Virus record (IMG/VR): IMGVR_UViG_3300032083_002760
Location: 1-35,135 of that record
Direction: 5' to 3' (one strand)
Length of the DNA: 35,135 bases
Origin: a virus
The notes under the pieces: model-generated
Told to the model about the DNA's origin: nothing
The model's database searches: none
The model's input: only the letters and a program-made list of their open reading frames with translations
Shown here: piece by piece, positions 3,117-23,399 of the stretch
How positions within the stretch are numbered: the first letter of the stretch is position 1
Layout of the letters: the number at the start of each line of letters is the position of its first letter
Translations under genes and position numbers: made by a program

Positions 3117-4100
3117 ATGTCCGTTACATTCGATTATTTCCCGTTCAATACAGGGCTGGGTGAAGACTCTTACGAGGATCGTTGGAGAGCTATTATTTCA
3201 ACGATGCGATCAAACGGAGTAGTAGTCGCAGGGCGTTTTATGTCCCAGCCAACCGGCGCGACCCCTAACGATTTATGCGTGTTCACAGATCCGGGTAACT
3301 TACGTGTCAGGGTGGGATATGGGACGGCGTTCATAAACGGACAAATGTTTCAAGCCATTACAAATAATGCAAGTCCCCAGTATACATTGTTAGATGTAGA
3401 GCCGAACCTTGGGGGGAGTCCTCGCACAGATTTAGTTGTAGCGCGTGCAAATTATGCAGAGTCAACAATAACATACCTCATACTTCTGGATACGAACGAA
3501 CCTGTTATAGATGCGAACACATACGACATTCCGCTCGCTCAGTTAACTGTACCCCCCTCAGCTACGGAAATAATACAAAGCAATATTTTAGATCGTCGCG
3601 TATCTTCCAACCAAGCTACATTTGCCCCAATGCTCATAGCTCGTCGAATTGTAGACCTAGCAATACCAGCAGGTTCAGGAGTTAACACAGACCCAACAAT
3701 AATACCATGGACAACGATCGAGCGCGGAAATATGTTTATGCGCGACCCAGACGACAACACAATAATCAACATAAAAGAAACTGGTGTTTACGATATAAAA
3801 TGTACCATAGCTTGGGACGGAACAATGGGCGATACTACACTTAGAAAAATAACGATTTTCAGAGAGTCTGAGGGGGTTACAACCTCTATATCTCAAGCAT
3901 CCGTTGTAACAAGCGGAATTAACACTGTTTCGGTGATATGCAACGCTACAAGGACAATAGAACTATCTCAATTTGATAAAATATACGTAGGTGCATACAA
4001 TTATAACCTCTCGAACGCTACCGAAATAATCTTCGAAGGGAACTACTCTCCCATTATTTCCGTAATAAAAATAGCGGATTCCGTGGGAATAGAAAACTAA
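3117..4100 (+). CDS. Tail/baseplate receptor-binding protein B (shared anchor, C1q-like tip)
   Basis: A 327-residue protein starting at ATG 3117 with AAAGGAGG eight bases upstream. Residues 1-165 repeat the anchor module of the protein at 174-986 (FNTGLGEDS, RWRAII, PLAQLTV, ILDRRVSSNQ). Residues about 175-325 are a different domain of C1q/TNF-like type (GVYDIKCTIAWDG, FDKIYVGAY, closing SPIISVIKI). This is a typical arrangement for phage receptor-binding proteins in which the tip is swapped while the dock is kept. It is the last late gene of the block and is followed by the promoter at 4146. It has its own terminator-proximal position after 3068-3095, so its level may differ from the upstream adhesins. 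Confidence 0.6.
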   Translation: MSVTFDYFPFNTGLGEDSYEDRWRAIISTMRSNGVVVAGRFMSQPTGATPNDLCVFTDPGNLRVRVGYGTAFINGQMFQAITNNASPQYTLLDVEPNLGGSPRTDLVVARANYAESTITYLILLDTNEPVIDANTYDIPLAQLTVPPSATEIIQSNILDRRVSSNQATFAPMLIARRIVDLAIPAGSGVNTDPTIIPWTTIERGNMFMRDPDDNTIINIKETGVYDIKCTIAWDGTMGDTTLRKITIFRESEGVTTSISQASVVTSGINTVSVICNATRTIELSQFDKIYVGAYNYNLSNATEIIFEGNYSPIISVIKIADSVGIEN

Positions 4101-6384: not shown

Positions 6385-6618
6385 TCAAAAATGAAATTTT
6401 ACTCCAGCATCTTTTATGGATGGCCTACTCTTATTTTCTTTTTTCTTTTCTTGTTTTTTGGGTTCAATATTCAATCCCTGCGACTTGTAATTTACCATTA
6501 GATATTTAATAAACGATGAAAATGAATTTACGTTGCAAGCATCTTCATATAATTCTTTTTCGATCGGATTATCAAGGTTAAATGCTACTCCCTTAATTTT
6601 TTGTTTAGACATAAGCAT
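6385..6618 (-). CDS. ParR-like centromere-binding protein (ribbon-helix-helix)
   Basis: 77 residues. The start ATG 6618 overlaps the parM end by 14 bases; an alternative ATG at 6612 is equally possible, with AGAGG upstream. The sequence IKGVAFNLDNPIEKELYEDA then FSSFIKYLMVNYK is the pattern of the small DNA-binding adaptors found with ParM in Gram-positive plasmids: a strand followed by two helices of a ribbon-helix-helix dimer. The basic tail (KKQEKKKENKSRPS) may reach the filament or DNA. In type II segregation systems ParR binds repeats (parC) and caps the growing ParM filament, pushing plasmid copies apart. Confidence 0.75.
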   Translation of the reverse strand: MLMSKQKIKGVAFNLDNPIEKELYEDACNVNSFSSFIKYLMVNYKSQGLNIEPKKQEKKKENKSRPSIKDAGVKFHF

Positions 6619-7513
6619 GAGCCTCTTCTAAGGTGTGAAAAAGCCCAATAACATTACCGTTCCGTGGGTCTTCCGGCACATATGCACGGGGGAATTTCTC
6701 TTTTATGTAAGGGTATACCACATGGGCAACACCTCCGAATATCTGTGTCAGGCAATCTGTATCCCAATCTAACTTACCAGATACATTTATGGCTGTCTTA
6801 GCGAGAGAAGAAGCCATTTTTTTTATCTCATTAACGTTAATTTGGTCATCATTTTTTTTGGAGAATCCAAATTGTTGTTTAGTTGTTTCCCACCCATTCC
6901 ATTCAGTACCTGATTTTGCGTTTACATAGGTAGGCTTGTTATAGAGATAAAAATCATAATAGGCAAAGTTTATTGTTTTAGCTCCAAAATCAAGAATTTG
7001 CGTATTCTCGTCGCGAGGATCTGACCAAAATGCCATAGCCCCCTCTTGAGCGATAAGTAATTTTTCATTTATTTTTATAGAGCATTCCCTAGTAGATGGC
7101 TCTTTTCTAGTCTGCTTAACGAGTTTGTACCTCACTTCATGTGTTCCTATAAGTAGCTTTTTTATTGCGTTTGTTTCTTCTTTAACTAACTTTTTAATTG
7201 GAACAATAACACCAAGATCAATATCGCTTTCGATCAGATCAGCATATATCACTGATGCGATCACTTGCACCTTTAGTATTTCATCTGCTTTTGATTCCCC
7301 AAAATTAGATCTATCCCTACCGCCGCCCTCTCGCTTGGCGAGGTTACCCACCCACCATTTCTTACCTTCAATCTCAATTTCTAAGTCACCCTCTAGCCAT
7401 ACTGGATTATTTTGATGAACGGCCTCCGCAACGGGACTAGGGAATGCCCCCATGAGCGTGCTAGATTTGTATTCTACTTCACTTCTACCTGCATCAACTG
7501 CCAAAAGTGTCAT
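6605..7513 (-). CDS. parM: ParM/StbA-type actin-like plasmid segregation ATPase
   Basis: 302 residues, start ATG 7513 with AAAGGAGATG nine bases upstream. Actin-fold landmarks are visible: the first phosphate loop LAVDAGRSE (residues 4-12), the second phosphate motif ILDFGAKTINF (about 173-183) with D175, and the adenosine motif IFGGVAHVV (about 258-266). The length is close to other ParM/Alp proteins. The protein polymerises with ATP into filaments that move plasmid copies to opposite cell halves. It is first in an operon with the ParR-like protein and is driven by the promoter at 7561-7589. Its presence on a phage genome indicates the prophage is kept as a low-copy plasmid. Confidence 0.85.
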   Translation of the reverse strand: MTLLAVDAGRSEVEYKSSTLMGAFPSPVAEAVHQNNPVWLEGDLEIEIEGKKWWVGNLAKREGGGRDRSNFGESKADEILKVQVIASVIYADLIESDIDLGVIVPIKKLVKEETNAIKKLLIGTHEVRYKLVKQTRKEPSTRECSIKINEKLLIAQEGAMAFWSDPRDENTQILDFGAKTINFAYYDFYLYNKPTYVNAKSGTEWNGWETTKQQFGFSKKNDDQINVNEIKKMASSLAKTAINVSGKLDWDTDCLTQIFGGVAHVVYPYIKEKFPRAYVPEDPRNGNVIGLFHTLEEAHAYV

Positions 7514-14455: not shown

Positions 14456-14756
14456 ATCGCAAAAACAAAAGGGCGATCGTTTTGAGCGTTGGTTTGCAAA
14501 AAAGATTGGTGGTGAACGAGTGCCACTTTCGGGAGCATTGGGCGGCAAGTACGTTGGTGACGTAACAGGGCTTAACCTGACTTGGGAATGCAAGTCTAGA
14601 AAAGATGCGTTTAAAACGTATTATAAGTGGCTTGAAAAAGTTGATGCACTAGTTATAAAATCCGATCGGCAAGAGGCGTTAGTCGTTATACCCCTTCAAA
14701 AATTCCTAGAGGGGTGGTCTAGTGCAAAACAACAGAGAAGTAATAAAAACAGTTGA
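14448..14756 (+). CDS. PDDEXK-type Holliday junction resolvase-like nuclease
   Basis: 102 residues from GTG 14448, overlapping the previous gene. The sequence KQKGDRFERWFAKKIGGERV, PLSGALGGKYVGDVTG, LTWECKSRKDAF shows the PDDEXK core: a glutamate in the first helix (E13), an aspartate in GDV (about 38) and the ECK motif (about 47-49). This is the layout of Hjc-type resolvases and related phage nucleases that cut branched DNA before packaging. Position after recombination genes and before the late regulator fits. Cleavage specificity cannot be read from sequence. Confidence 0.75.
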   Translation: MGRSQKQKGDRFERWFAKKIGGERVPLSGALGGKYVGDVTGLNLTWECKSRKDAFKTYYKWLEKVDALVIKSDRQEALVVIPLQKFLEGWSSAKQQRSNKNS

Positions 14757-15126
14757 AAAACATTTGTATGGATACCACGACCTCAAGAAAAAAATTGCGG
14801 ACAGGAAACTAGATATGATACTGTCCGCACCAGCACAGCAGGAAATTAGAAATAAACAACCCTCTGACCCAACGGGTAGGATTGTTCTAAGAATGAGCGC
14901 AGATCACAAATTAGATCGATGGATGAAGATTATTCTAGCTGTAGATATTTCACTTGTAAGTGTTGAATATGAAAAGCGTAAAGTTATAGAGTACAAGTAT
15001 TTTATGCATCCCGATGAAACATGGGAGAATGTAGCAGATTTGCATTATGTAGATGTGCGCACACTAAGAAATTGGAAGAGTTATCTGGTACATGATATCG
15101 CAACACGACTGGGGTATTACTATTAA
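14722..15126 (+). CDS. ArpU/RinA-type late transcription activator 1
   Basis: 134 residues from GTG 14722 behind GAGGGGTGG, overlapping the nuclease gene by 35 bases. The N-terminal helix (VEKHLYGYHDLKKKIADRKL) and C-terminal helix-turn-helix (WENVADLHYVDVRTLRNWKS, then LVHDIATRLGYYY) match the ArpU/RinA group, which switches on virion genes in phages of Firmicutes. It lies directly before the terminase block. A second protein of the group at 22418-22819 lies before the head-tail block, with the related ending WINVADIHNIGKSTLYQWRS. Confidence 0.75.
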   Translation: MQNNREVIKTVEKHLYGYHDLKKKIADRKLDMILSAPAQQEIRNKQPSDPTGRIVLRMSADHKLDRWMKIILAVDISLVSVEYEKRKVIEYKYFMHPDETWENVADLHYVDVRTLRNWKSYLVHDIATRLGYYY

Positions 15127-15216: not shown

Positions 15217-15243
15217 GGAGCCTTGCAAAAGGTTCCATTTTTT
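15217..15243 (+). terminator. Hairpin with T-run ahead of terS
   Basis: Stem GGAGCCTT/AAGGTTCC with the stable loop GCAA is followed by ATTTTTTAT. It closes the early operon. If the promoter at 15166 is used, it would also act as an attenuator in the late leader. A similar hairpin follows the second ArpU-type gene at 22913-22933. Confidence 0.65.
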
Positions 15244-15284: not shown

Positions 15285-15761
15285 ATGCGCGTTCCTATTG
15301 AGAAGTGGGCTACTCAAGAGAATTTGGAAGTGCTTGAAGGATGGGGCAGAAGGGGTCTAACGTTCGGTCAAATAGCTGAGAACATGGGAGTAAGCATAGG
15401 AACGCTTACGAACTGGAGAAAAAAGAACGATGATATCCGCAAAGCTCTCGAGGCGACAAAAGAAATTGCAGATTTGCATGTAGAAAATGCGATGTTTAAA
15501 AGCGCATGCGGATTTTACTATAAAGAACAAGTAGTAACAAATAAGGGTGAGATTGTTTGGATTCAAAAATTTGAGAAGCCGAACACGACAGCGCAAATAT
15601 TTTATCTAAAGAATCGCATGCCCGGCATCTGGACAGACAGACGAGAATTAAAGCACGAGGCAAAAATAGAGAATGTAGAATATATAGCGCGCTGGGGGAA
15701 AGACGATGTATCAGACGGAGAACAGCAAATTCATAAAGACAACGATGATATGCAGAAATGA
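15285..15761 (+). CDS. terS: Terminase small subunit
   Basis: 158 residues from ATG 15285 after AAAGGAGAG. Residues 1-50 hold a helix-turn-helix (LEGWGRRGLTFGQIAENMGV, SIGTLTNWRKKND), followed by a long helix (KALEATKEIADLHVENAMFK) that would form the oligomer core, and a charged tail. This is a standard small terminase layout: the protein recognises the phage DNA and recruits the large subunit. The 3' end overlaps the first ATP-grasp gene by 56 bases, and the large subunit is 1.4 kb further on instead of adjacent. Confidence 0.8.
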   Translation: MRVPIEKWATQENLEVLEGWGRRGLTFGQIAENMGVSIGTLTNWRKKNDDIRKALEATKEIADLHVENAMFKSACGFYYKEQVVTNKGEIVWIQKFEKPNTTAQIFYLKNRMPGIWTDRRELKHEAKIENVEYIARWGKDDVSDGEQQIHKDNDDMQK

Positions 15762-16443
15762 GTATATTAAAGATAAATATATGCCCGAATTTGATTTGTA
15801 CTCTAAGCAAAGTGTGTTAAACATGCTTTACGACTATGGAACAGTATTTATTAAGCCAGACGAGTCGACAGGGAATAGGGGAGTCATTAGACTCCGTCTG
15901 GTAGAAAATGGTAAAATTGAATTAATGGATTCGTACGGGAAAGTTAAAGAAATTGACGAAAGCACACTACCTGAGTGGTCGCAAACAAGATACTTTGTAC
16001 AAGAAGCAATAGATTCGATCGGATACGATGGGCGCAGTGTAGAAGTTAGAGTGTACTTACAGCGTATGCAAAGCACTTGGGAAGTACGCGCAATAATACC
16101 AAAGATCGCGCCAGACGCTGAAAAATTTTCAAGTGTCTCCTATCGGGGCGGTACTACATTGCCCTTTGTCGACGTGTTCGGGGACGAATCAGAAGAATTA
16201 GAAAGAGAGCTTAAAAACGCTTGCTTACTTATGTCGGATGAGTTAACAAAACACATAACAGGTCTTAGAGAACTAGGGTTTGATATGGGCGTAGATAAAC
16301 ATTACAATACACGCTATATCGAAGTGAACACAAGGCCAGCGCTGGGCGCGGTACGGTTAACTAAGAACATGGTCTTGTACGAAACAATTAACCAGTATAA
16401 GCAGATTTTGCAGAAGATAGACACGGAGGAGGTTAAATTTTAG
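15706..16443 (+). CDS. YheC/YheD-type ATP-grasp protein, copy 1
   Basis: 245 residues. The start at ATG 15706, inside terS, is supported by the GGGGG seven bases upstream and by alignment of its first residues (MYQTENSKFIKT) with those of copy 2 (MFQTCLNKFMKT). Visible ATP-grasp landmarks: VFIKPDESTGNRGVIRL with the nucleotide-binding lysine about 50, YFVQEAID at 96-103, DGRSVEVRVYLQ at 108-119, the glycine pair YRGG at 146-149, and ELGFDMGVD then YIEVNTRP with metal ligands E206 and N208. The pattern is that of YheC/YheD proteins, known from spore-forming Bacillales. Such enzymes join a carboxylate to an amine through an acyl phosphate. The substrate is unknown. D of the usual GRxxDxR motif is replaced by E. 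Confidence 0.75.
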   Translation: MYQTENSKFIKTTMICRNEYIKDKYMPEFDLYSKQSVLNMLYDYGTVFIKPDESTGNRGVIRLRLVENGKIELMDSYGKVKEIDESTLPEWSQTRYFVQEAIDSIGYDGRSVEVRVYLQRMQSTWEVRAIIPKIAPDAEKFSSVSYRGGTTLPFVDVFGDESEELERELKNACLLMSDELTKHITGLRELGFDMGVDKHYNTRYIEVNTRPALGAVRLTKNMVLYETINQYKQILQKIDTEEVKF

Positions 16444-17198
16444 TGTTCCAAACGTGCCTAAACAAGTTTATGAAGACTAGTGTTATTAACGCCAATCCCA
16501 ATCTACGTAAGCATGTTCCCGAGTTTTGTATGTACAATCGCCGCAACGCTATGTACATGCTTGAGAAACATGTGAGCGTATTTGTAAAACCAAACGAGGG
16601 CGCGAGAGGCTTTGGAATAGTGCGTTTAAGAAAAAGGGATGAACAAGTTATTGAGTGCATCGACCATCGCGGAAATGTTAAGTATACGAATTATTCACAG
16701 CTTCCTGAATGGTCTCAAGATAAATATATAATTCAAGAAGCTATAGATATACCGTGCATCGATGGACGGGTTTGGGATATTCGCATACATCTTCAAAAAT
16801 TAAACGACACATGGGAAATAATGGGAAATATTTCTAAGCTTGGCGAAGAGGGAAAGGTTGTTACAAACAACGCTCACGGCGGTAAATCTATAGACACTGA
16901 AGAATTATTAAGTAGAGTTATAGAAGATAAAAGTACGATCTCACACACTATTTTTATGTTAGATACACTCTCTGCAGAGATTGCGTATACGCTAGAAGTA
17001 GAGTATGCAGGTATACGAGAGCTTGGGATTGATCTCGCGTTAGATAAAAATAATAACATTTGGATAATAGAAGCTAATACTAACCCACCGTCTATATTGT
17101 TCAAGAATATAGAGTTTGCATGCAAAGCAATAGACCGAAATAAAAAATATTTGCGCGCAAATGTTGAAACACAAAATTTTTCTTTCGAGGCACTATGA
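16443..17198 (+). CDS. YheC/YheD-type ATP-grasp protein, copy 2
   Basis: 251 residues from GTG 16443, overlapping the copy 1 stop by one base, with GGAGGAGG about 11 bases upstream. It keeps the canonical motifs: VFVKPNEGARGFGIVRL (lysine about 49), YIIQEAID, DGRVWDIRIHLQK with D112 and R114, NNAHGG at 142-147, ELGIDLALD and WIIEANTNPP with E210 and N212. Copies share LPEWSQ, QEAID, TWE and the metal site and look roughly one third identical, so they are old tandem paralogs. The stop overlaps the terL start (ATGA). All active-site positions are present, so it is probably an active ligase; whether the two form a heterodimer is open. Confidence 0.8.
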   Translation: MFQTCLNKFMKTSVINANPNLRKHVPEFCMYNRRNAMYMLEKHVSVFVKPNEGARGFGIVRLRKRDEQVIECIDHRGNVKYTNYSQLPEWSQDKYIIQEAIDIPCIDGRVWDIRIHLQKLNDTWEIMGNISKLGEEGKVVTNNAHGGKSIDTEELLSRVIEDKSTISHTIFMLDTLSAEIAYTLEVEYAGIRELGIDLALDKNNNIWIIEANTNPPSILFKNIEFACKAIDRNKKYLRANVETQNFSFEAL

Positions 17199-18421
17199 AA
17201 GCGAACATAGATCTATATACGCCCCACGCTGGACAAATAAAGATTCATAACGCTATAGAAAAAACACGCTTTGTTGTGGCTACGTGTGGGAGAAGATTTG
17301 GGAAGACACTAGCATGCACAAACGAAATTGTTAGAAATGCGTGGATAAATCCGCGGAGTTCATCCCTCTGGTGCGCTCCCACGTACGATCAAAGCAAACT
17401 AGCTTTTCAGGTAATAACAAGTAATATATCAGGGGCTATACATAGCGCAACGCGAAGCCCAATGGATATTACATTTAAAAACGGGAGCGTGACACAGTTT
17501 AGAAGCACAGAAAAGTACGATAACCTTCGTGGGCGCGGCGTTGATCTGCTTATTTTAGACGAGGCGGCAATGGTGAACGGAAGCGCGTGGAGTGAATCTT
17601 TAAGACCAATGCTGTCAGACAGAAACGGAAAAGCCGTCATTGTATCAACCCCGAAGGGGAGAAACTGGTTTTTCCAACTTTGGAGCCGTGGGCAAGATCC
17701 AGAATTTCCTAATTACGCTTCTTTTAAGTTTCCTACGTCTGCAAATCCGCTTATACCTCAAGAAGAAATCGAAGAAGCGCGTCGGACGCTTCCGAGTGAC
17801 GTTTTTCAGCAAGAATACGAAGCAGAGTTCTTGGAAAGTGCTGGGCAAGTTTTTCGAAATGTTACAAATTGCGTGAGGGATCATCTACATGAAAAATCAA
17901 CGCCGCTCCCCCAGTCTAGGTTTATAGCTGGCTGGGACATCGCGAAGACGACGGATTTTAGTTGCATAGTGATTATGGACAGAAATACAAAAGAAGTGGT
18001 GTACTTCGATAGATTTAGAAGAATTGACTATACATTACAAGTTAAGCGCGTAGCGAGTTTAGCGCAAAAATTCAACAAAGCGCGCGTAGTAATGGACTCC
18101 ACAGGAGCAGGCGATCCCGTATTAGAGCAGATGCAACGCGCCGGGGTAAACGTAGAGGGTATTACGTTTACAAACAGTTCAAAACAAAATTTAATTGAGA
18201 ATCTTTCTGTTATGTTAGAGAAAGAAGAAATAACTTACCCAAAGATTGAAGTACTGATAAATGAGTTAATGAGTTTTGAGTACGATATGACACGCGCTGG
18301 AAACATACGTTATCAAGCACCGCAAGGGATGCATGATGATTGTGTTATTGCATTATCGCTAGCCTGCTGGGGAATAAAACACTCTACTACACCCAGAGCG
18401 AGAATGATACGCTGGAATTAA
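17195..18421 (+). CDS. terL: Terminase large subunit
   Basis: 408 residues, start ATG 17195 overlapping the copy 2 ATP-grasp stop. ATPase motifs: Walker A CGRRFGKT at 31-38, Walker B LLILDEAA at about 118-125, coupling motif VSTPKG at 150-155. Nuclease motifs of the RNase H-like domain: GWDIAKTTDF (D248), VVMDSTGAGD (D301) and GMHDDCVIALSLA near 385-397. The protein pumps DNA into the prohead and cuts it. Length and motifs are complete. Confidence 0.93.
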   Translation: MKANIDLYTPHAGQIKIHNAIEKTRFVVATCGRRFGKTLACTNEIVRNAWINPRSSSLWCAPTYDQSKLAFQVITSNISGAIHSATRSPMDITFKNGSVTQFRSTEKYDNLRGRGVDLLILDEAAMVNGSAWSESLRPMLSDRNGKAVIVSTPKGRNWFFQLWSRGQDPEFPNYASFKFPTSANPLIPQEEIEEARRTLPSDVFQQEYEAEFLESAGQVFRNVTNCVRDHLHEKSTPLPQSRFIAGWDIAKTTDFSCIVIMDRNTKEVVYFDRFRRIDYTLQVKRVASLAQKFNKARVVMDSTGAGDPVLEQMQRAGVNVEGITFTNSSKQNLIENLSVMLEKEEITYPKIEVLINELMSFEYDMTRAGNIRYQAPQGMHDDCVIALSLACWGIKHSTTPRARMIRWN

Positions 18422-18441
18422 ATATCAGGGGGCAATATTAT

Positions 18442-18696
18442 ATGTCTAGCTTAAAAGAGTATTTCACACTAGATAAAAAAGAAGAGTTGAAGCACAAGAA
18501 AGAACTAACAATACAGATGCTAGAAAGTGCGCTAGAGCATATTAAGAAAGATAATATTTATGTGTACAATATGCGCTGTAACGAAGAAACGAAGACACAC
18601 CTTGATCTACGAGGAAAAAGTACTGTATATGAACATAATTTTTCTTTCTATTCATGTGATCCCGAAAAAAATGAAGCGATGATAACAAAGGAATAG
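18442..18696 (+). CDS. Small protein of unknown function (84 aa)
   Basis: Start ATG 18442, nine bases after AGGGGGC and 21 bases after terL. Residues 1-40 are a charged helix (LKEYFTLDKKEELKHKKELT, then IQMLESALEHIKKDN). The C-terminal part (IYVYNMRCNEETKTH, STVYEHNFSFYSCD) is beta-like and shows weak resemblance to the end of the protein at 19794-20228. No known domain. It opens the small-gene island between terminase and portal. Confidence 0.55.
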   Translation: MSSLKEYFTLDKKEELKHKKELTIQMLESALEHIKKDNIYVYNMRCNEETKTHLDLRGKSTVYEHNFSFYSCDPEKNEAMITKE

Positions 18697-18707
18697 GGGG
18701 TAATTGC

Positions 18708-18848
18708 ATGGACGAAAATAATCCGTTTCGGGTTTTGCTTGGGTACATTATAGCGTGCGTTGTTGTGTTCGGGTCTCTGGGTTGTGCATTTGCGTTAATT
18801 GTGTGGATTATAAAAAGCTTCTGGAATGCTCTTAATACCATCCTTTAA
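18708..18848 (+). CDS. Small membrane protein (46 aa)
   Basis: Start ATG 18708 after AGGGGGTAATTGC. The product is MDENNPFRVLLGYIIACVVV, then FGSLGCAFALIVWIIKSFW: a short polar head and one long or two short membrane segments. Size and topology would fit a holin-like or anti-receptor peptide, but there is no endolysin next to it. Function unknown. Confidence 0.55.
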   Translation: MDENNPFRVLLGYIIACVVVFGSLGCAFALIVWIIKSFWNALNTIL

Positions 18849-18866
18849 ATACATAGGGGGCTTAAC

Positions 18867-19358
18867 ATGAAGAATTTTCTTAATCTTTTCGGCAAGTTAT
18901 TTTCTTCCGAAAAAGAGAGAGTAATAGAAGATAAAAAAGAGAGAGTAATAATAGAAGATAAAAAAGAAGCGGTTGAAGTAAAAGAGGAATGTGTTGAAAA
19001 TCAAATAGAACAAAATTTATATAAGATATTAGATACACTCCGTCCCTACGTCGGCTTTAAATTTAACACAGAAGATAGAATATATGAGATCGCTTACCAG
19101 TATCAGCAATTTAGCTATTACGATAATACAATATGTGTCAAAGTATGCGATTTAGAAGACGAGGAAATAGGACTAATTAAAAGCAGGTACATTTATTATT
19201 CTATGTATGAAGAGTACAAAAAATTTTTAGGACACTATCCAGAGATGTTGTCCTTTTTTGCGGAAGAACAAAAAATAATGAATGAAGAGTTATTAAAAAT
19301 AACATCAGATAGGTTGACACTCCACACGGATTCATCCGTGGGATTCTCGAGTAGTTAG
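18867..19358 (+). pseudogene. Small-island gene whose 3' end is replaced by an inserted element
   Basis: 163 codons from ATG 18867 after GGGGGC. The N-terminus MKNFLNLFGKLFSSEKERV is followed by two near-identical runs of ERVIxEDKKE, then a globular part (LYKILDTLRPYVGFKFN, YQYQQFSYYDNTICVKVCDL). From residue 150 on, the last 14 residues (LTLHTDSSVGFSSS) are coded by the element at 19314-19765. Removing the element restores the frame to end INLKKAAI-stop at 19790-19792, two bases before the next ATG. The native protein therefore lost nine residues and gained 14; it may still work. Confidence 0.6.
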
Positions 19359-19540
19359 CGTTCTCAGGCCATTTCTGTTTCGAACAACTCTCGAGTTAAG
19401 GGCGGTGTCATCAGCCCGTCCCATGCAGTTAGAAATGTACCCACATGGGCGGTGTACCTGTTACCAGTACACTAGATTGTTTTACGCAGTCAATGCAACC
19501 TCGTACTATACTTCCGAGGAGAGACCTACACAGTAGGATG
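19295..19540 (-). ncRNA. Omega-RNA-like guide RNA region of the element
   Basis: The right-hand part of the element on the minus strand resembles the omega-RNA of TnpB elements: conserved-looking stems ACAGGTACACCGCCC and GATGACACCGCCC, the terminal hairpin and GTGTCAA end. In such RNAs the guide is the flanking DNA right after the element, here starting CCTATCTGATGTTATTTT (19313 downward). The 5' boundary given is approximate. A TnpB protein would have to come from elsewhere. Confidence 0.45.
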
Positions 19541-19765
19541 AGCACAGCTCATATGATGATTCTACCAAAAGATAGTTGCTCTTACCACCTCCTTTTCGGA
19601 GGTGCTGATCAACGCCGACTTTCATCCCACCCTTGAAAGAGTTGGGCTTTCACTCGGCGATGTTCTGTAATGATAGTAAGCGAAGCACTGACGGAGTCTG
19701 ATATGCAATCCTTTAAGAATCAGCGCATGAGGGTTATTAACAAAGTGGAGGAATGACCCTACGCA
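19314..19765 (-). mobile_element. ORF-less IS200/IS605-type element (452 bp)
   Basis: The right end (minus strand) shows the classic TnpB-element ending: CTCGAGAATCCCACGG, a hairpin CACGGA-TGAA-TCCGTG (19340-19325), GGAGTGTCAA. The left end has a 9-bp hairpin AGGGTCATT/AATAACCCT (19760-19730). TTTAT lies directly outside the left end (19770-19766) and no target duplication is present, as expected for these single-strand transposons. Inside there is no transposase or TnpB frame, but many stable hairpins. I read it as a nonautonomous relative that is moved in trans. The fit of the flanking gene after removal supports the boundaries. Exact ends could be off by one or two bases. Confidence 0.7.
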
Positions 19766-19793
19766 ATAAATTTAAAAAAGGCGGCTATATAAA

Positions 19794-20228
19794 ATGGAAA
19801 AATTTATGAGCGAAGAGAAAATGAAACAATCAGAGGAAGACAAAAAGTTCATTTCGAAATTATTGCTTGAATTCAAAAAAGATTTGGAAAAAAATGAAGG
19901 GGTAGTGAGTTGTGTATATTTTAACCTTATAAAAGAAGAAAATGAGGGAAATTATACCCGGAAAGGAAAATTTAAATTCGAGAAATATAAACATGAACTG
20001 ATTTTTGATATAGTGCGCTCTTTGTCAGATAATCAAAATGAATTGGATGAAGATTATAGAAAAGAAGCTCTTGGGGGCGTGGAAAAGATACTATTACATT
20101 TAAAAAGAGAAGATGTTTTGTATGCCTGCGGTGAGGAGATGCGCTATGGAATGCACGAAGAGCAAAGCATACACCGCAACACTATAACAAAAAAATATAA
20201 TTTCGAGGTGCATACTGCTAAAAAGTAG
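19794..20228 (+). CDS. Acidic/charged protein of unknown function (144 aa)
   Basis: Start ATG 19794 with AAGGCGG ten bases upstream; an ATG at 19806 is an alternative. Highly charged helix at the N-terminus (SEEKMKQSEEDKKFISKLLL, EFKKDLEKNEG) followed by a beta-rich middle and the end HLKREDVLYACGEEMRYGMH, KKYNFEVHTAKK. The C-terminal region weakly resembles that of 18442-18696, so the two may be distant paralogs. No function assigned. Confidence 0.6.
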   Translation: MEKFMSEEKMKQSEEDKKFISKLLLEFKKDLEKNEGVVSCVYFNLIKEENEGNYTRKGKFKFEKYKHELIFDIVRSLSDNQNELDEDYRKEALGGVEKILLHLKREDVLYACGEEMRYGMHEEQSIHRNTITKKYNFEVHTAKK

Positions 20229-20240
20229 AGGGTGAGTATA

Positions 20241-20300
20241 ATGGTATGGTTTATACTGGGAGTAATCCTAGGCTGGGCATGCGGCCGTATATTGAGGTGA
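20241..20300 (+). CDS. Tiny membrane peptide (19 aa)
   Basis: ATG 20241 follows GAGGGTGAG. The product MVWFILGVILGWACGRILR is one hydrophobic helix with a basic end. The stop codon is part of the ribosome site (GAGGTGA) of the next gene. The strong ribosome site and snug fit argue for translation, the size argues for caution. Confidence 0.4.
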   Translation: MVWFILGVILGWACGRILR

Positions 20301-20304
20301 TCTT

Positions 20305-20658
20305 ATGCAATTTAAAGACAGGGTTAAAGAACTTAGACGAAGCAGAGGATGGAGTCAACAGGATTTTGCGTCTAAAATAGGAATAGGTCAATCTGGAGTG
20401 GCCGGTTACGAATCGGGTAGAAAAATAGCTTCGCCCGACAATCTTATTAAAATCTCAAAATTATTTGGGGTATCTTTAGATTATCTATTGGGCGTAAGTG
20501 ATGAAAAGATAGTCTACCATTCTGGCGGACAGATAAAAGATCCTGATTTGATTCATCTAACTAACTTAGTACGTCCTAAATTAAATGGGATTTCCGTCAC
20601 AGACGATCAATGGAAGATGATTACAACGTTTTTGGAAATGGTGGCAAAGAATTTATAA
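20305..20658 (+). CDS. XRE-family HTH repressor-like protein in the island
   Basis: 117 residues from ATG 20305 after GAGGTGAT. Residues 3-60 are an XRE domain of the Bacillus repressor type (RVKELRRSRGWSQQDFASKI, GIGQSGVAGYESGRKIASPD, FGVSLDYLLGVSDEK). The C-terminal part (LIHLTNLVRPKLNGISVTDD, then QWKMITTFLEMVAKNL) has no peptidase motif. It resembles the CI-like protein in layout. A third repressor-like gene among plus-strand small genes suggests this island came from another mobile element or has its own control circuit. Confidence 0.75.
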   Translation: MQFKDRVKELRRSRGWSQQDFASKIGIGQSGVAGYESGRKIASPDNLIKISKLFGVSLDYLLGVSDEKIVYHSGGQIKDPDLIHLTNLVRPKLNGISVTDDQWKMITTFLEMVAKNL

Positions 20659-20683
20659 GATAGAGGCAAGGAGAGGTGAGCGT

Positions 20684-20914
20684 ATGGAAGAACTAAAAAT
20701 TCTGGGCGTAGCTATTTTATTTGTAATCACGTTTTTCGCGGGACGATGGTTGGGCTATGAAGAAGGGTGCAAAGATAACAAGTATAAATTTATGCTTCAC
20801 ACATTTATGGAGGGGTTAGAAGCATGTTCGATAGAAGATGAAGATAAGAGAAAAGAAGCGATGAAAGAAGTTGAAGAAAAATGTAAGAATCCATATGCAT
20901 TTATGAAGAGGTGA
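20684..20914 (+). CDS. Small protein with N-terminal membrane anchor (76 aa)
   Basis: ATG 20684 after GGAGAGGTGAGCG. Residues 5-22 (KILGVAILFVITFFAGRW) are a membrane segment, followed by a charged helix (SIEDEDKRKEAMKEVEEKCK). It ends with AGG TGA, the stop being part of the following ribosome site. Unknown function. Confidence 0.55.
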   Translation: MEELKILGVAILFVITFFAGRWLGYEEGCKDNKYKFMLHTFMEGLEACSIEDEDKRKEAMKEVEEKCKNPYAFMKR

Positions 20915-20918
20915 TTGG

Positions 20919-21098
20919 GTGACACTAGAAATAGTCTTAATGTGCGTTCTGATAGGAATCGGAGTCGCATTACTGCCGCAGCTATTAAAAGTTTTAATCG
21001 GAATAGTAGCAGGTGTACTGGGATGTATTCTACTCTGTGTATTGTTTATAATGGCGGTAAGCGTAAATATATGGAGAAGAGTTTCTTTAAAGAGGTGA
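20919..21098 (+). CDS. Hydrophobic membrane protein (59 aa)
   Basis: GTG 20919 is preceded by GAGGTGATTGG. The product MTLEIVLMCVLIGIGVALLP, QLLKVLIGIVAGVLGCILLC, VLFIMAVSVNIWRRV has two to three membrane segments. The stop again lies in the AGAGGTGAG ribosome site of the next gene. An overlapping frame gives a basic polar product and is rejected. Holin-like by topology only. Confidence 0.55.
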   Translation: MTLEIVLMCVLIGIGVALLPQLLKVLIGIVAGVLGCILLCVLFIMAVSVNIWRRVSLKR

Positions 21099-21102
21099 GC
21101 GG

Positions 21103-21285
21103 ATGTATCCTCCGATACAACAAAAAGATATCTACATAATAATGAGAAGCATCGATCGAATTGGAAACGATACGGATACGCCATGCGCTCAATTAAGGTA
21201 CGGGAGTAAATGGATTAAATACTTTCTGGGCATACCATATGAAGAGAATATAAAATTGTTGAAGCGCGTATATGGTGAGAGGTGA
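21103..21285 (+). CDS. Small protein of unknown function (60 aa)
   Basis: ATG 21103 directly follows AAAGAGGTGAGCGG. The product contains IYIIMRSIDRIGNDTD, QLRYGSKWIKYFLGIPYEEN and ends KRVYGER. No motif recognised. It belongs to the chain of short genes joined by nearly identical ribosome sites. Confidence 0.5.
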   Translation: MYPPIQQKDIYIIMRSIDRIGNDTDTPCAQLRYGSKWIKYFLGIPYEENIKLLKRVYGER

Positions 21286-21289
21286 GCGG

Positions 21290-21520
21290 ATGGAATTAAA
21301 GATATATATATTTGCAGATAATCATGATAGAGAGTTTCACGAAAAAGTTCACGCTGTAATTGCTTATACAGAAGAAGAGGCTAAAAAGATTTTAGAGTCT
21401 ATGAGCTACAAGGGTCTATCACTACTGGGAACTCAAAATATTGAGCGACGTTTAATAATATCCGCTCCATTTCTAAGTAGAACAATTTTCACATGTACAC
21501 ACCCATGTTGGGAGAGGTGA
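21290..21520 (+). CDS. Small protein of unknown function (76 aa)
   Basis: ATG 21290 after GAGAGGTGAGCGG. The product MELKIYIFADNHDREFHEKV, HAVIAYTEEEAKKILESMSY has a beta-alpha layout and resembles small phage proteins that carry a GTEEEAKK-type helix. It ends in ...CTHPCWER. Function unknown. Confidence 0.5.
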   Translation: MELKIYIFADNHDREFHEKVHAVIAYTEEEAKKILESMSYKGLSLLGTQNIERRLIISAPFLSRTIFTCTHPCWER

Positions 21521-21524
21521 GCGG

Positions 21525-21845
21525 GTGGAATCGAAAAACGAAAAAGCAGAGAGATACTTAATACAAAATCTTTTTAAATCTGTCGTTCCCAATCAACATG
21601 TAGAAAAGTTATACGAAATGATGGGCATTCTAGCGGATATGGGGATCGAAGTAAAAATAACGAATCATGTTCCCGACGCATCTAAAATGCAAATCTCGTT
21701 GCAATTGTGGATTGACGAAAAAATAGAATATGAACAAGTGCTCAAAGGTGATATGACAGAAACATACTTTTTCTTTCAGCATTGCAAGAACAAGATACTA
21801 GATCTATTAGCGATGGCTATTTATACAGAAAAAAAAACGGCGTAA
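21525..21845 (+). CDS. Small protein of unknown function (106 aa)
   Basis: GTG 21525 after GAGAGGTGAGCGG. Alpha-helical N-terminus (SKNEKAERYLIQNLFKSVVP, QHVEKLYEMMGILADMGIEV) and a mixed C-terminus (DMTETYFFFQHCKNKILDLL). No recognised domain. It is the last member of the ribosome-site-linked chain. Confidence 0.55.
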   Translation: MESKNEKAERYLIQNLFKSVVPNQHVEKLYEMMGILADMGIEVKITNHVPDASKMQISLQLWIDEKIEYEQVLKGDMTETYFFFQHCKNKILDLLAMAIYTEKKTA

Positions 21846-21915
21846 TAGGACGAATAGGATCAATAACGTAACGTTACAAAATAATTGTTTTGTTACTACA
21901 CGAGGAGGTTATTAA

Positions 21916-22032
21916 ATGCTCGAGAAAAACGTTCCTGACTGGTTAATGGCAACAAGTATATTGCTCATATCCGTTGGTATATCAGCGTTTTTAATCGCCG
22001 GAGCATATAGGATGTTTACGGGTAATTGGTAG
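21916..22032 (+). CDS. Small membrane protein (38 aa)
   Basis: ATG 21916 after GAGGAGG. MLEKNVPDWLMATSILLISV, GISAFLIAGAYRMF gives one membrane segment. A GTAACGTTAC palindrome lies upstream at about 21869-21878. Function unknown. Confidence 0.5.
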   Translation: MLEKNVPDWLMATSILLISVGISAFLIAGAYRMFTGNW

Positions 22033-22225
22033 TCATTAAGTTGTAATTAGTACTACCACCATACTCACAAACAAGGTAATATCCAATACTTAGAATAATA
22101 AATACTATTCTACACCACGACAAATAGCACTAATACTACATTTAAATACTAGCATTCACAAAAAGCAATCAAAAATTATACATATTATAAATGATTCCAT
22201 ATTATAGTAATCCTACTAAATTGAA
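22033..22225 (+). other. Gene-free, G-poor stretch of about 190 bp
   Basis: No frame with a ribosome site is seen. The plus strand is very poor in G and carries many TACTA/ACTAC motifs. Its composition differs from both flanks. Confidence 0.5.
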
Positions 22226-22366
22226 ATGAGGTGGTGGCGGATTATCGAAGATGAAATGGAATTCGTATCACATCACGAGTTGAGCGACGAAGCAAAGAAA
22301 GTAATTGAGGATTCACGAAAAGAACTTATCGAATACATTATTGAAGAATACACGAAAGATTATTAA
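22226..22366 (+). CDS. Small acidic protein (46 aa)
   Basis: Open from ATG 22226, but the only ribosome site (GAGGTGGTGGCGG) lies after that codon and directly before an in-frame ATT at 22241; the next ATG is at 22256. The start is therefore uncertain. The product is helical and acidic (EFVSHHELSDEAKKVIEDSR, KELIEYIIEEYTKDY). It is followed by a terminator. Confidence 0.45.
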   Translation: MRWWRIIEDEMEFVSHHELSDEAKKVIEDSRKELIEYIIEEYTKDY

Positions 22367-22371
22367 AAAAG

Positions 22372-22398
22372 GCACACCCAACAGGGTTGCTTTTTTTT
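22372..22398 (+). terminator. Terminator at the end of the small-gene island
   Basis: Stem GCACACCC/GGGTTGC with loop AACA is followed by eight T. It separates the island from the second late regulator. Confidence 0.75.
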
Positions 22399-22417
22399 AT
22401 TGGAGGGGATGGGAAAG

Positions 22418-22819
22418 GTGAAGCTACGTAAAAACACATTCAAGTACATTGAACAGGAGATCTATAGTTATTACGAGACTAGAAAGCGCGCGGAAGAAAT
22501 AACCCTTGATATTGCTTACTCCACACCACCCCAACATGAAATTCGCTCCACAGATATAAGTGATCCCACATTTGTCACAGCACACATTTTAGCTACGCAT
22601 AAAGAAAGACTACGTATGATCGATACAGTTGAAGCCATCCACGAATCAATATCGTCATTAGATCCTGAAGTCTACGATGTTCTTAATGATAAGTATTGGA
22701 CAAGACCGTATCTATCATGGATAAATGTAGCTGATATTCATAATATTGGAAAGTCTACATTGTATCAATGGAGATCCCATTTTGTAAAAAGTGTGGCAAT
22801 GAGATTGGGAATGTCATGA
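22418..22819 (+). CDS. ArpU/RinA-type late transcription activator 2
   Basis: About 133 residues. GTG 22418 is nine bases after GGAGGGG; TTG 22400 and ATG 22409 lie before or next to it. N-terminal helix (NTFKYIEQEIYSYYETRKRA), a middle with AYSTPPQHEIRSTDISDPT similar to the SAPAQQEIRNKQPSDPT of activator 1, and a C-terminal helix-turn-helix (WINVADIHNIGKSTLYQWRS, HFVKSVAMRLGMS). It stands before the portal block and probably drives head and tail genes. Possible target sites just downstream are two ATCCGGAA repeats (22822-22840) and the palindrome GATATTGTGATATC (22860-22873). Confidence 0.75.
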   Translation: MKLRKNTFKYIEQEIYSYYETRKRAEEITLDIAYSTPPQHEIRSTDISDPTFVTAHILATHKERLRMIDTVEAIHESISSLDPEVYDVLNDKYWTRPYLSWINVADIHNIGKSTLYQWRSHFVKSVAMRLGMS

Positions 22820-22912
22820 ACATCCGGAAGAAATCCGGAAAATCAACGCATATATACATGATATTGTGATATCGTGCGAGAAGTGTATGCTTTTTCCTTG
22901 CTAGTTAAAATA

Positions 22913-22933
22913 AGCCTTCGGGGCTAATTTTTT
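22913..22933 (+). terminator. Short hairpin with T-run after activator 2
   Basis: AGCC-TTCGG-GGCT followed by AATTTTTTAT. The stem is short but the position, between an ArpU-type gene and the structural block it may control, mirrors 15217-15243. Confidence 0.5.
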
Positions 22934-22955
22934 ATATAAAAATGGAGATGATCAG

Positions 22956-23168
22956 ATGGACTTCATTAATACTATTAATTGGGAAAATGTGTTGTATGCG
23001 ATATTCACCCTTTTGGCGGCAAGTGGTGTTACATTCAGCTGGCTCAAGAAGATGTGCCAGAAGATTGAATCTACTAATTTACGTGTGGAAGAACACAGGG
23101 ACGAGATACGCGAGATTGTGGCTGAAATGAGAAAGGTGATTGAAAACAATAAGGGGGCTAAGCAATGA
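22956..23168 (+). CDS. Small membrane protein with coiled coil, holin- or XhlA-like in layout
   Basis: 70 residues from ATG 22956 after GGAGATGA. Residues 10-28 (VLYAIFTLLAASGVTFSWL) are a membrane segment, followed by a charged coiled-coil helix (RVEEHRDEIREIVAEMRKVI). Layout resembles small phage membrane proteins that assist holins, though XhlA has the membrane part at the other end. It is the first gene of the head block and the best single candidate for a lysis factor, but the evidence is weak. Confidence 0.45.
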   Translation: MDFINTINWENVLYAIFTLLAASGVTFSWLKKMCQKIESTNLRVEEHRDEIREIVAEMRKVIENNKGAKQ

Positions 23169-23329
23169 CGCGCGTTAAGTTTATTGCCCCTTTTTTGTAT
23201 GCGGATACAGTAAACACGGTTGACTATGTAATAAAAGTCGATCGCGGCATTGGCATTATGGATGGTTATCTAAATGACGATCTAGCGCAAGAGCTGATTG
23301 GGTTGGGATTAGCGCAAGAAGTCGAATAA
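23165..23329 (+). CDS. Small head-module protein (54 aa)
   Basis: ATG 23165 overlaps the previous stop by four bases (ATGA). The product MTRVKFIAPFLYADTVNTVD then DDLAQELIGLGLAQEVE matches by eye the family of short phage proteins with a V-KF start and an end in which a helix LAxxLIxxGLA follows. The gene at 27668-27862 has the same layout, so the two are probably paralogs. The role is likely structural and minor. Confidence 0.55.
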   Translation: MTRVKFIAPFLYADTVNTVDYVIKVDRGIGIMDGYLNDDLAQELIGLGLAQEVE

Positions 23330-23399
23330 ATTTAGGGGGGTGATTTAAATTGTAGTAGTAGAGAATTTAAAAAACATAGCCCGAAAATGGTGGGGGCAA

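Follow-up and report, generated by a model that had tools for sequence, protein, structure and literature searches.

Two paralogous ATP-grasp genes of the YheC/YheD type (YheCD) lie in tandem between the terminase small-subunit (terS) and large-subunit (terL) genes of IMG/VR virus record IMGVR_UViG_3300032083_002760, of which the whole stretch analysed, 35,135 nucleotides, is here called the window. The arrangement is real and unusual, and none of the other phages searched has it. The best overall explanation, held tentatively and at slightly less than an even chance, is that short-form YheCD ligases were duplicated and inserted at a junction between terminase modules, copy 2 acting as the catalytic enzyme and copy 1 as its partner. 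The features of the region are as follows.

14722-15126, plus strand: ArpU-type transcription regulator, copy A (phrog_36, E=1.1e-12; also phrog_248)
15217-15236, plus strand: terminator-like hairpin with T-run between ArpU-A and terS (scan; 8 pairs, loop of 4)
15285-15761, plus strand: terS, terminase small subunit (phrog_309, E=2.4e-39 over residues 6-144)
15706-16443, plus strand: ATP-grasp copy 1, YheCD short clade, 245 aa (PF14398, residue census, tree)
16443-17198, plus strand: ATP-grasp copy 2, YheCD short clade, 251 aa, GTG start (PF14398, residue census)
17195-18421, plus strand: terL, terminase large subunit, P74-26-like Terminase_6 (PF03237, 1.8e-17; PF17289, 4.8e-14)

The coordinates, lengths and overlaps given for the pair in an initial annotation proved exact on re-checking, and the translational linkage that it claimed is borne out: terS and copy 1 overlap by 56 nt, copy 1 and copy 2 by 1 nt (TAGTG), and copy 2 and terL by 4 nt (ATGA). 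The N-termini of the two copies are alignable from residue 1 (M[FY]QT...KF.KT..I..N), which independently supports both start codons and, through them, the 56-nt overlap with terS. A ribosome-binding-like sequence lies upstream of every start (GGGGGAAAG, GGAGGAGG and CGAGG). When the region was shuffled, stop-free runs reached at most 186 codons (mean 67), and the finding of twin genes is not due to chance. The terL product contains both the Terminase_6N and Terminase_6C domains (Pfam). No promoter belonging to the pair itself was identified, its genes being buried inside the terS-terL overlaps, and an Rfam search of the window gave no match. The best reading is that the pair is co-translated with terminase as one coupled unit, and the co-expression proposed earlier is supported as an interpretation.

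Membership in the YheC/YheD-type ATP-grasp family, also proposed initially, rests on matches to the PF14398 profile (ATPgrasp_YheCD). Copy 1 scores 105.5 bits (E = 3.5e-30, profile positions 26-233 of 255) and copy 2 scores 166.3 bits (E = 1e-48, positions 8-236 of 255), both above the curated Pfam cut-off of 26.8 bits. The copies are 35% identical to one another (E about 3e-44) and are sisters in the tree described below, in agreement with the earlier description of tandem paralogues. Copy 2 also gave weak profile matches to RimK, MptN and TTL models. Among PADLOC defence models copy 2 had no match, and copy 1 had one of 13 bits (E 0.006), which is at chance level.

Catalytic residues were assessed in a census against nine non-viral relatives from Paenibacillus and Priestia plasmids, whose alignment has 18 invariant columns. 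Overall identity of the phage pair to these relatives is only about 18-28% (18-26% for copy 1), and copy 2 nonetheless retains all 18 invariant residues. Copy 1 retains 14 of the 18, including the lysine of the KP motif, Q, R, both aspartates and the E-x-N motif. The nucleotide lysine is K50 in copy 1 and K49 in copy 2, the aspartates are D193 and D197 (D197 and D201 in copy 2), and the E-x-N residues are E206/N208 and E210/N212, respectively. The changes in copy 1 include two in the ATP loop, where KPNEGARGFGI of copy 2 is intact and the corresponding KPDESTGNRGV of copy 1 has diverged (G53 to S and G56 to N in copy 2 numbering). The other two are D112 to E and W207 to R, which are E113 and R203 in copy 1's own numbering. 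Thus the lysine, the E-x-N site and the D-to-E replacement in copy 1 stand as initially annotated, and the asymmetry between the copies is real, but it is larger than described: the loss from copy 1 of two invariant ATP-loop glycines and the invariant tryptophan had been missed. Judged by these substitutions, the handling of ATP by copy 1 has probably changed. Retention of 14 of 18 residues at 18-26% identity is nevertheless strong, so that copy 1 does not resemble a decayed gene.

Both phage proteins consist of the ATP-grasp core alone and begin at the core. In the family alignment, full-length YheC/YheD-type members (about 340-480 aa) carry about 100-200 additional N-terminal residues, and the absence of this region from both copies is a further feature overlooked at first. 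AlphaFold models of the copies are weak (mean pLDDT 55 for copy 1 and 63 for copy 2) because they rest on a four-sequence alignment. With these low-confidence models, structural neighbours from Foldseek and VIA are nearly all ATP-grasp proteins, matched over residues of about 25-214, with Z up to 10.5 and 9.7. The neighbours of the weak models comprise TTLL11, TTLL6, TTL, Ddl (D-Ala-D-Ala ligases), LysX/ArgX, RimK and carbamoyl phosphate synthetase, and further matches to the same models are RizA and a Streptomyces ATP-grasp peptide ligase. A search with a profile of the family matched chains of TTL/TTLL6 polyglutamylase and of glutathione synthetase. An enzyme of this class is most naturally read as a carboxylate-amine ligase.

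In a maximum-likelihood tree of 21 rows, which has long branches and from which B. subtilis YheC/YheD were left out, copy 1 and copy 2 are sisters (support 99/97) nested in a short-form YheCD clade (97/94). This clade is made up of forms from Paenibacillus polymyxa and P. cellulosilyticus (plasmids) and a protein from a second virus, L062. On this sampling, a duplication inside the short clade appears to have produced the pair, independently of the long tandem copies of P. cellulosilyticus. Tandem YheCD genes also occur in cells: NZ_CP054613.1 has five consecutive copies at 154-160 kb. YheC/YheD enzymes are common among spore-forming Bacillales. Members of the PF14398 family were also found on plasmids of Staphylococcus and Azospirillum, neither of which forms spores.

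The pair is rare among phages. Searches by tblastn with both proteins against 50,697 phage records yielded nothing at 1e-5, and PHROGs holds no family for either copy. At an E of 10, the phage matches were confined to a Blautia/Faecalimonas tail gene (E 0.01) and chance matches. The Faecalimonas tail-gene match was rejected as a relative, the best Faecalimonas record having no PF14398 match. A peptide back-translation search of viral and genome contigs likewise found no close relatives of the pair. Two contigs that matched a DNA pattern for WSQ..Y..QEAI (L021 and L022) were rejected, since neither has an open frame that is pair-like by phmmer. The initial annotation had suggested checking for conserved placement between terS and terL, and such placement was not found: PF14398 is present in none of 15 TerL-related viral records. 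In 10 of the TerL-related records a terS-sized frame ends beside terL with no gene in the gap. In three annotated phages with the same terS family (RG-TP1, SMP and S-CoN_Ph27), terS and terL overlap or are at most 90 bases apart. The terS-terL gap is thus gene-free in 13 relatives, 10 by TerL and 3 by TerS.

The two terminase genes themselves have different affinities. This terS, of the phrog_309 type, is up to 51% identical to Streptococcus and Ruminococcus phage proteins, and this terL is 32-47% identical to proteins of Thermus phage P74-26 and environmental phages. The terL partners of phrog_309-type terS in three other phages showed no significant similarity to the window terL. As terS and terL have unrelated partners elsewhere, the ATP-grasp pair sits exactly at a junction of terminase modules. 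In an alignment with three relatives, conservation of terS extends to about residue 144, and the terS codons past about 140 lie inside the copy 1 overlap and form a lineage-specific tail. That conservation ends here, with the last codons read from the overlap, fits insertion at the 3' end of terS. The junction explains how the pair may have arrived, and it weakens the argument that position implies a role in packaging.

Other viral YheCD genes were sought with family motif patterns, which returned 18 and then 2 viral stretches, few of them true YheCD; the patterns demand exact matches, so that diverged members are missed. One true member, recovered again by a third, independent pattern, is a single short-clade YheCD of 252 aa from its ATG in L062 (IMGVR_UViG_3300001533_002449). 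There it forms a tight operon in the order RraA-like, QueC-like and YheCD, followed by a probable scaffold gene and a phrog_1357 capsid gene. No terminase neighbour was recognised on the contig. L062 resembles the window in having the short form in a late head region on the same strand, and differs in its single copy, its RraA-QueC-ATP-grasp operon and its capsid type (phrog_1357). The RraA-like and QueC-like neighbours suggest a biosynthetic context. The operon (L062:2878-4890) also adjoins the Avd and reverse transcriptase genes of a diversity-generating retroelement. Long-form YheCD proteins occur in L055 (a 360-residue frame) and in the 246-kb record to which L080 belongs (374 aa). YheCD enzymes thus turn up repeatedly, though rarely, in viruses, and each of the two short forms identified is located among head genes. 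In large viral contigs, the ATP-grasp proteins of L080 (5687-6808, minus strand), L046 and L059 have short leaders, MKFYSYNEFKLFEA, MKLFSFTQFVNE and MKLHTFNQFVNE, which we take to resemble the capsid-targeting leaders of T4; these leader-bearing proteins might be taken into the head and then injected.

In the preferred reading, a Paenibacillus-like short-form YheCD gene would have been acquired, duplicated and inserted at the terS/terL recombination junction. Copy 2, which very probably belongs to the ligase class, would bind Mg-ATP via K49, D197, D201, E210 and N212, phosphorylate a carboxylate and then permit attack by an amine to give an amide or peptide bond. Copy 1, with ATP and metal residues retained and the phosphate-binding loop altered, would most likely serve with copy 2 as a partner or second-specificity subunit; that the two form a heteromer is possible, at rather less than an even chance. 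An N-terminal domain helps substrate binding in Ddl/RimK-type enzymes, and since both phage proteins are without one, they probably act on a protein, on a peptide or on a polymer that a partner presents, and the modification would take place at the time of packaging-gene expression. The family, the residues, the gene order, the paralogy and the junction are shown; activity, partnership, timing and substrate are inferred. This scheme draws on the PF14398 matches, the 18 and 14 retained residues, the TTL/TTLL6-type profile and fold neighbours, the sister relation of the copies, the gene overlaps with their ribosome-binding-like sequences, and the second virus with a short YheCD directly upstream of scaffold and capsid. 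Against it stand the low confidence of the structure models, the L062 operon, which points to biosynthesis rather than virion modification, the mosaic-junction placement, which could make the pair accidental cargo, and the absence of close relatives that would show persistence under selection.

The target of such an enzyme divides the remaining explanations. One candidate, rather unlikely, is that the pair modifies a protein of the virion or of the packaging machinery (TerS, TerL, portal or capsid), for instance by attaching amino acids to a carboxylate as TTL-type or RimK-type protein ligases do. It would account for the tight coupling to terS and terL, for the TTL/TTLL similarity in profile and fold, and for the short-clade gene beside scaffold and capsid in L062, but the placement is not conserved in relatives, the junction is mosaic, and the L062 operon also includes RraA-like and QueC-like enzymes. 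A stronger version, in which the packaging operon specifies a ligase for peptides or amino acids, composed of two subunits and dedicated to the covalent tagging of terminase or a virion protein during packaging, is improbable; post-translational control by a ligase of this kind has, to our knowledge, not been described for phage DNA packaging. The pair could instead be a moron-like function directed at the host, in which ligation on envelope peptides or on a protein of the host would serve to exclude superinfection or to take over the cell, as the literature proposes for phage amidoligase/ATP-grasp sets. This is rather unlikely. A cell-wall-altering role has been suggested for phage accessory genes of the amidoligase, glutamine amidotransferase and ATP-grasp kinds (PMC10580990, PMC3890496), and Ddl-like structural matches and foreign origin in a Paenibacillus-like clade are in keeping with action on the host, but the scanned genes of the window include no partner of the amidotransferase or amidoligase type and no promoter of the pair's own was identified. 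Synthesis of a peptide or small molecule, whether by an amino-acid ligase, a graspetide-like double ligase or cofactor tailoring, is unlikely. The weak MptN and RimK-family profile matches, the structural matches to RizA and the Streptomyces peptide ligase, and the L062 operon all favor it, but no biosynthetic neighbours were recognised in the window. Tandem ligases do occur in graspetide clusters; the graspetide form was rejected, since a precursor peptide would not fit into the terS-terL interval.

Passive insertion of recent cargo at a mosaic junction, with no selected role, would suit the position of the pair between unrelated terS and terL modules and its absence from other phages, but duplicates that have diverged to 35% identity and still keep open frames and catalytic residues in both copies argue against drift, and this explanation is very unlikely. 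Least probable, and very unlikely, is action on spore-coat material such that a phage plasmid is carried into spores, which the initial annotation had raised. The yheC and yheD genes belong to the mother-cell sigma-E programme and are upregulated by SpoIIID (PMC517825), and in B. subtilis a shell of YheD encloses the forespore, its function having been left open in that work (PMC7911427). The phage forms, however, are core-only and show linkage to packaging genes rather than to expression governed by sporulation, the family extends to the plasmids of non-spore formers noted above, and apart from family membership nothing found ties the pair to spores.

The family is known; its form, number and place here are unusual. 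No report of YheC/YheD in a phage packaging operon was found in the open-access literature, most subscription journals lying outside the scope of that search. Cellular YheC/YheD proteins (PF14398; Paenibacillus plasmids CP097774.1 and NZ_CP054613.1) share with the pair the Pfam family, the catalytic residues and the occurrence of tandem copies, and the short cellular members are likewise core-only, whereas the phage genes stand between terS and terL and the ATP loop of copy 1 is degraded. Sets of ATP-grasp, amidoligase and glutamine amidotransferase genes in Luz24-like and OM43 phages (PMC3890496, PMC10580990) are also phage-borne amide-forming ligases, though not necessarily of the YheCD family. 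Those sets differ in that they occupy early regions or regions of DNA replication and are accompanied by amidotransferase and amidoligase partners. The R2K ATP-grasp peptide ligases of jumbo phages, for which a protein-modification role has been proposed (PMC4431377, PMC7824862), are again phage-borne ATP-grasp proteins and proposed protein modifiers, but they form a separate clade with scattered placement, and no tandem pair in packaging genes has been described among them. Among enzymes whose protein substrates are known, tubulin-tyrosine ligase and the TTLL glutamylases are the best neighbours by profile and by fold; they are eukaryotic and larger, and the similarity is remote only.

A phage that keeps a minimal, duplicated YheCD under its own putative late-gene control provides a compact and separable system in which to look for the substrate of YheC/YheD: the genes are few, their timing is defined and the masses of virion proteins can be measured. 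A packaging or virion target, if true, would reveal a further, new level at which phage assembly is controlled, and an envelope-peptide target would explain a host-modifying trait.

The timing of the block may be set by its surroundings. A second, paralogous ArpU gene at 22400-22819, before the portal/capsid block, is 34% identical to ArpU-A (E 2e-23), and another terminator-like hairpin (22913-22925) follows it before the portal block. The terS/ATP-grasp/terL block may be a separately switched late unit; hairpin numbers in the region are near the shuffle mean, so that this evidence is suggestive only.

Several other features of the window were observed. The gap from terL to portal (18422-23399) holds about 5 kb of small accessory genes, several encoding unknown proteins, with an HTH regulator at 20305-20658. 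Short repeated ribosome-binding-like stretches (AGAGGTGAGCG) occur at 20672, 21091, 21278 and 21513. An actin-like partition protein (6605-7513, minus strand; ALP_N 4.2e-10, phrog_691 3.6e-25), with weak relatives on Sporosarcina and Selenomonas plasmids, supports a phage-plasmid lifestyle. The tail-tip region includes a possible BclA-like C-terminal domain at 3117-4100 (BclA_C below cut-off, E 0.0088) and a laminin-G/lectin domain protein at 983-1678.
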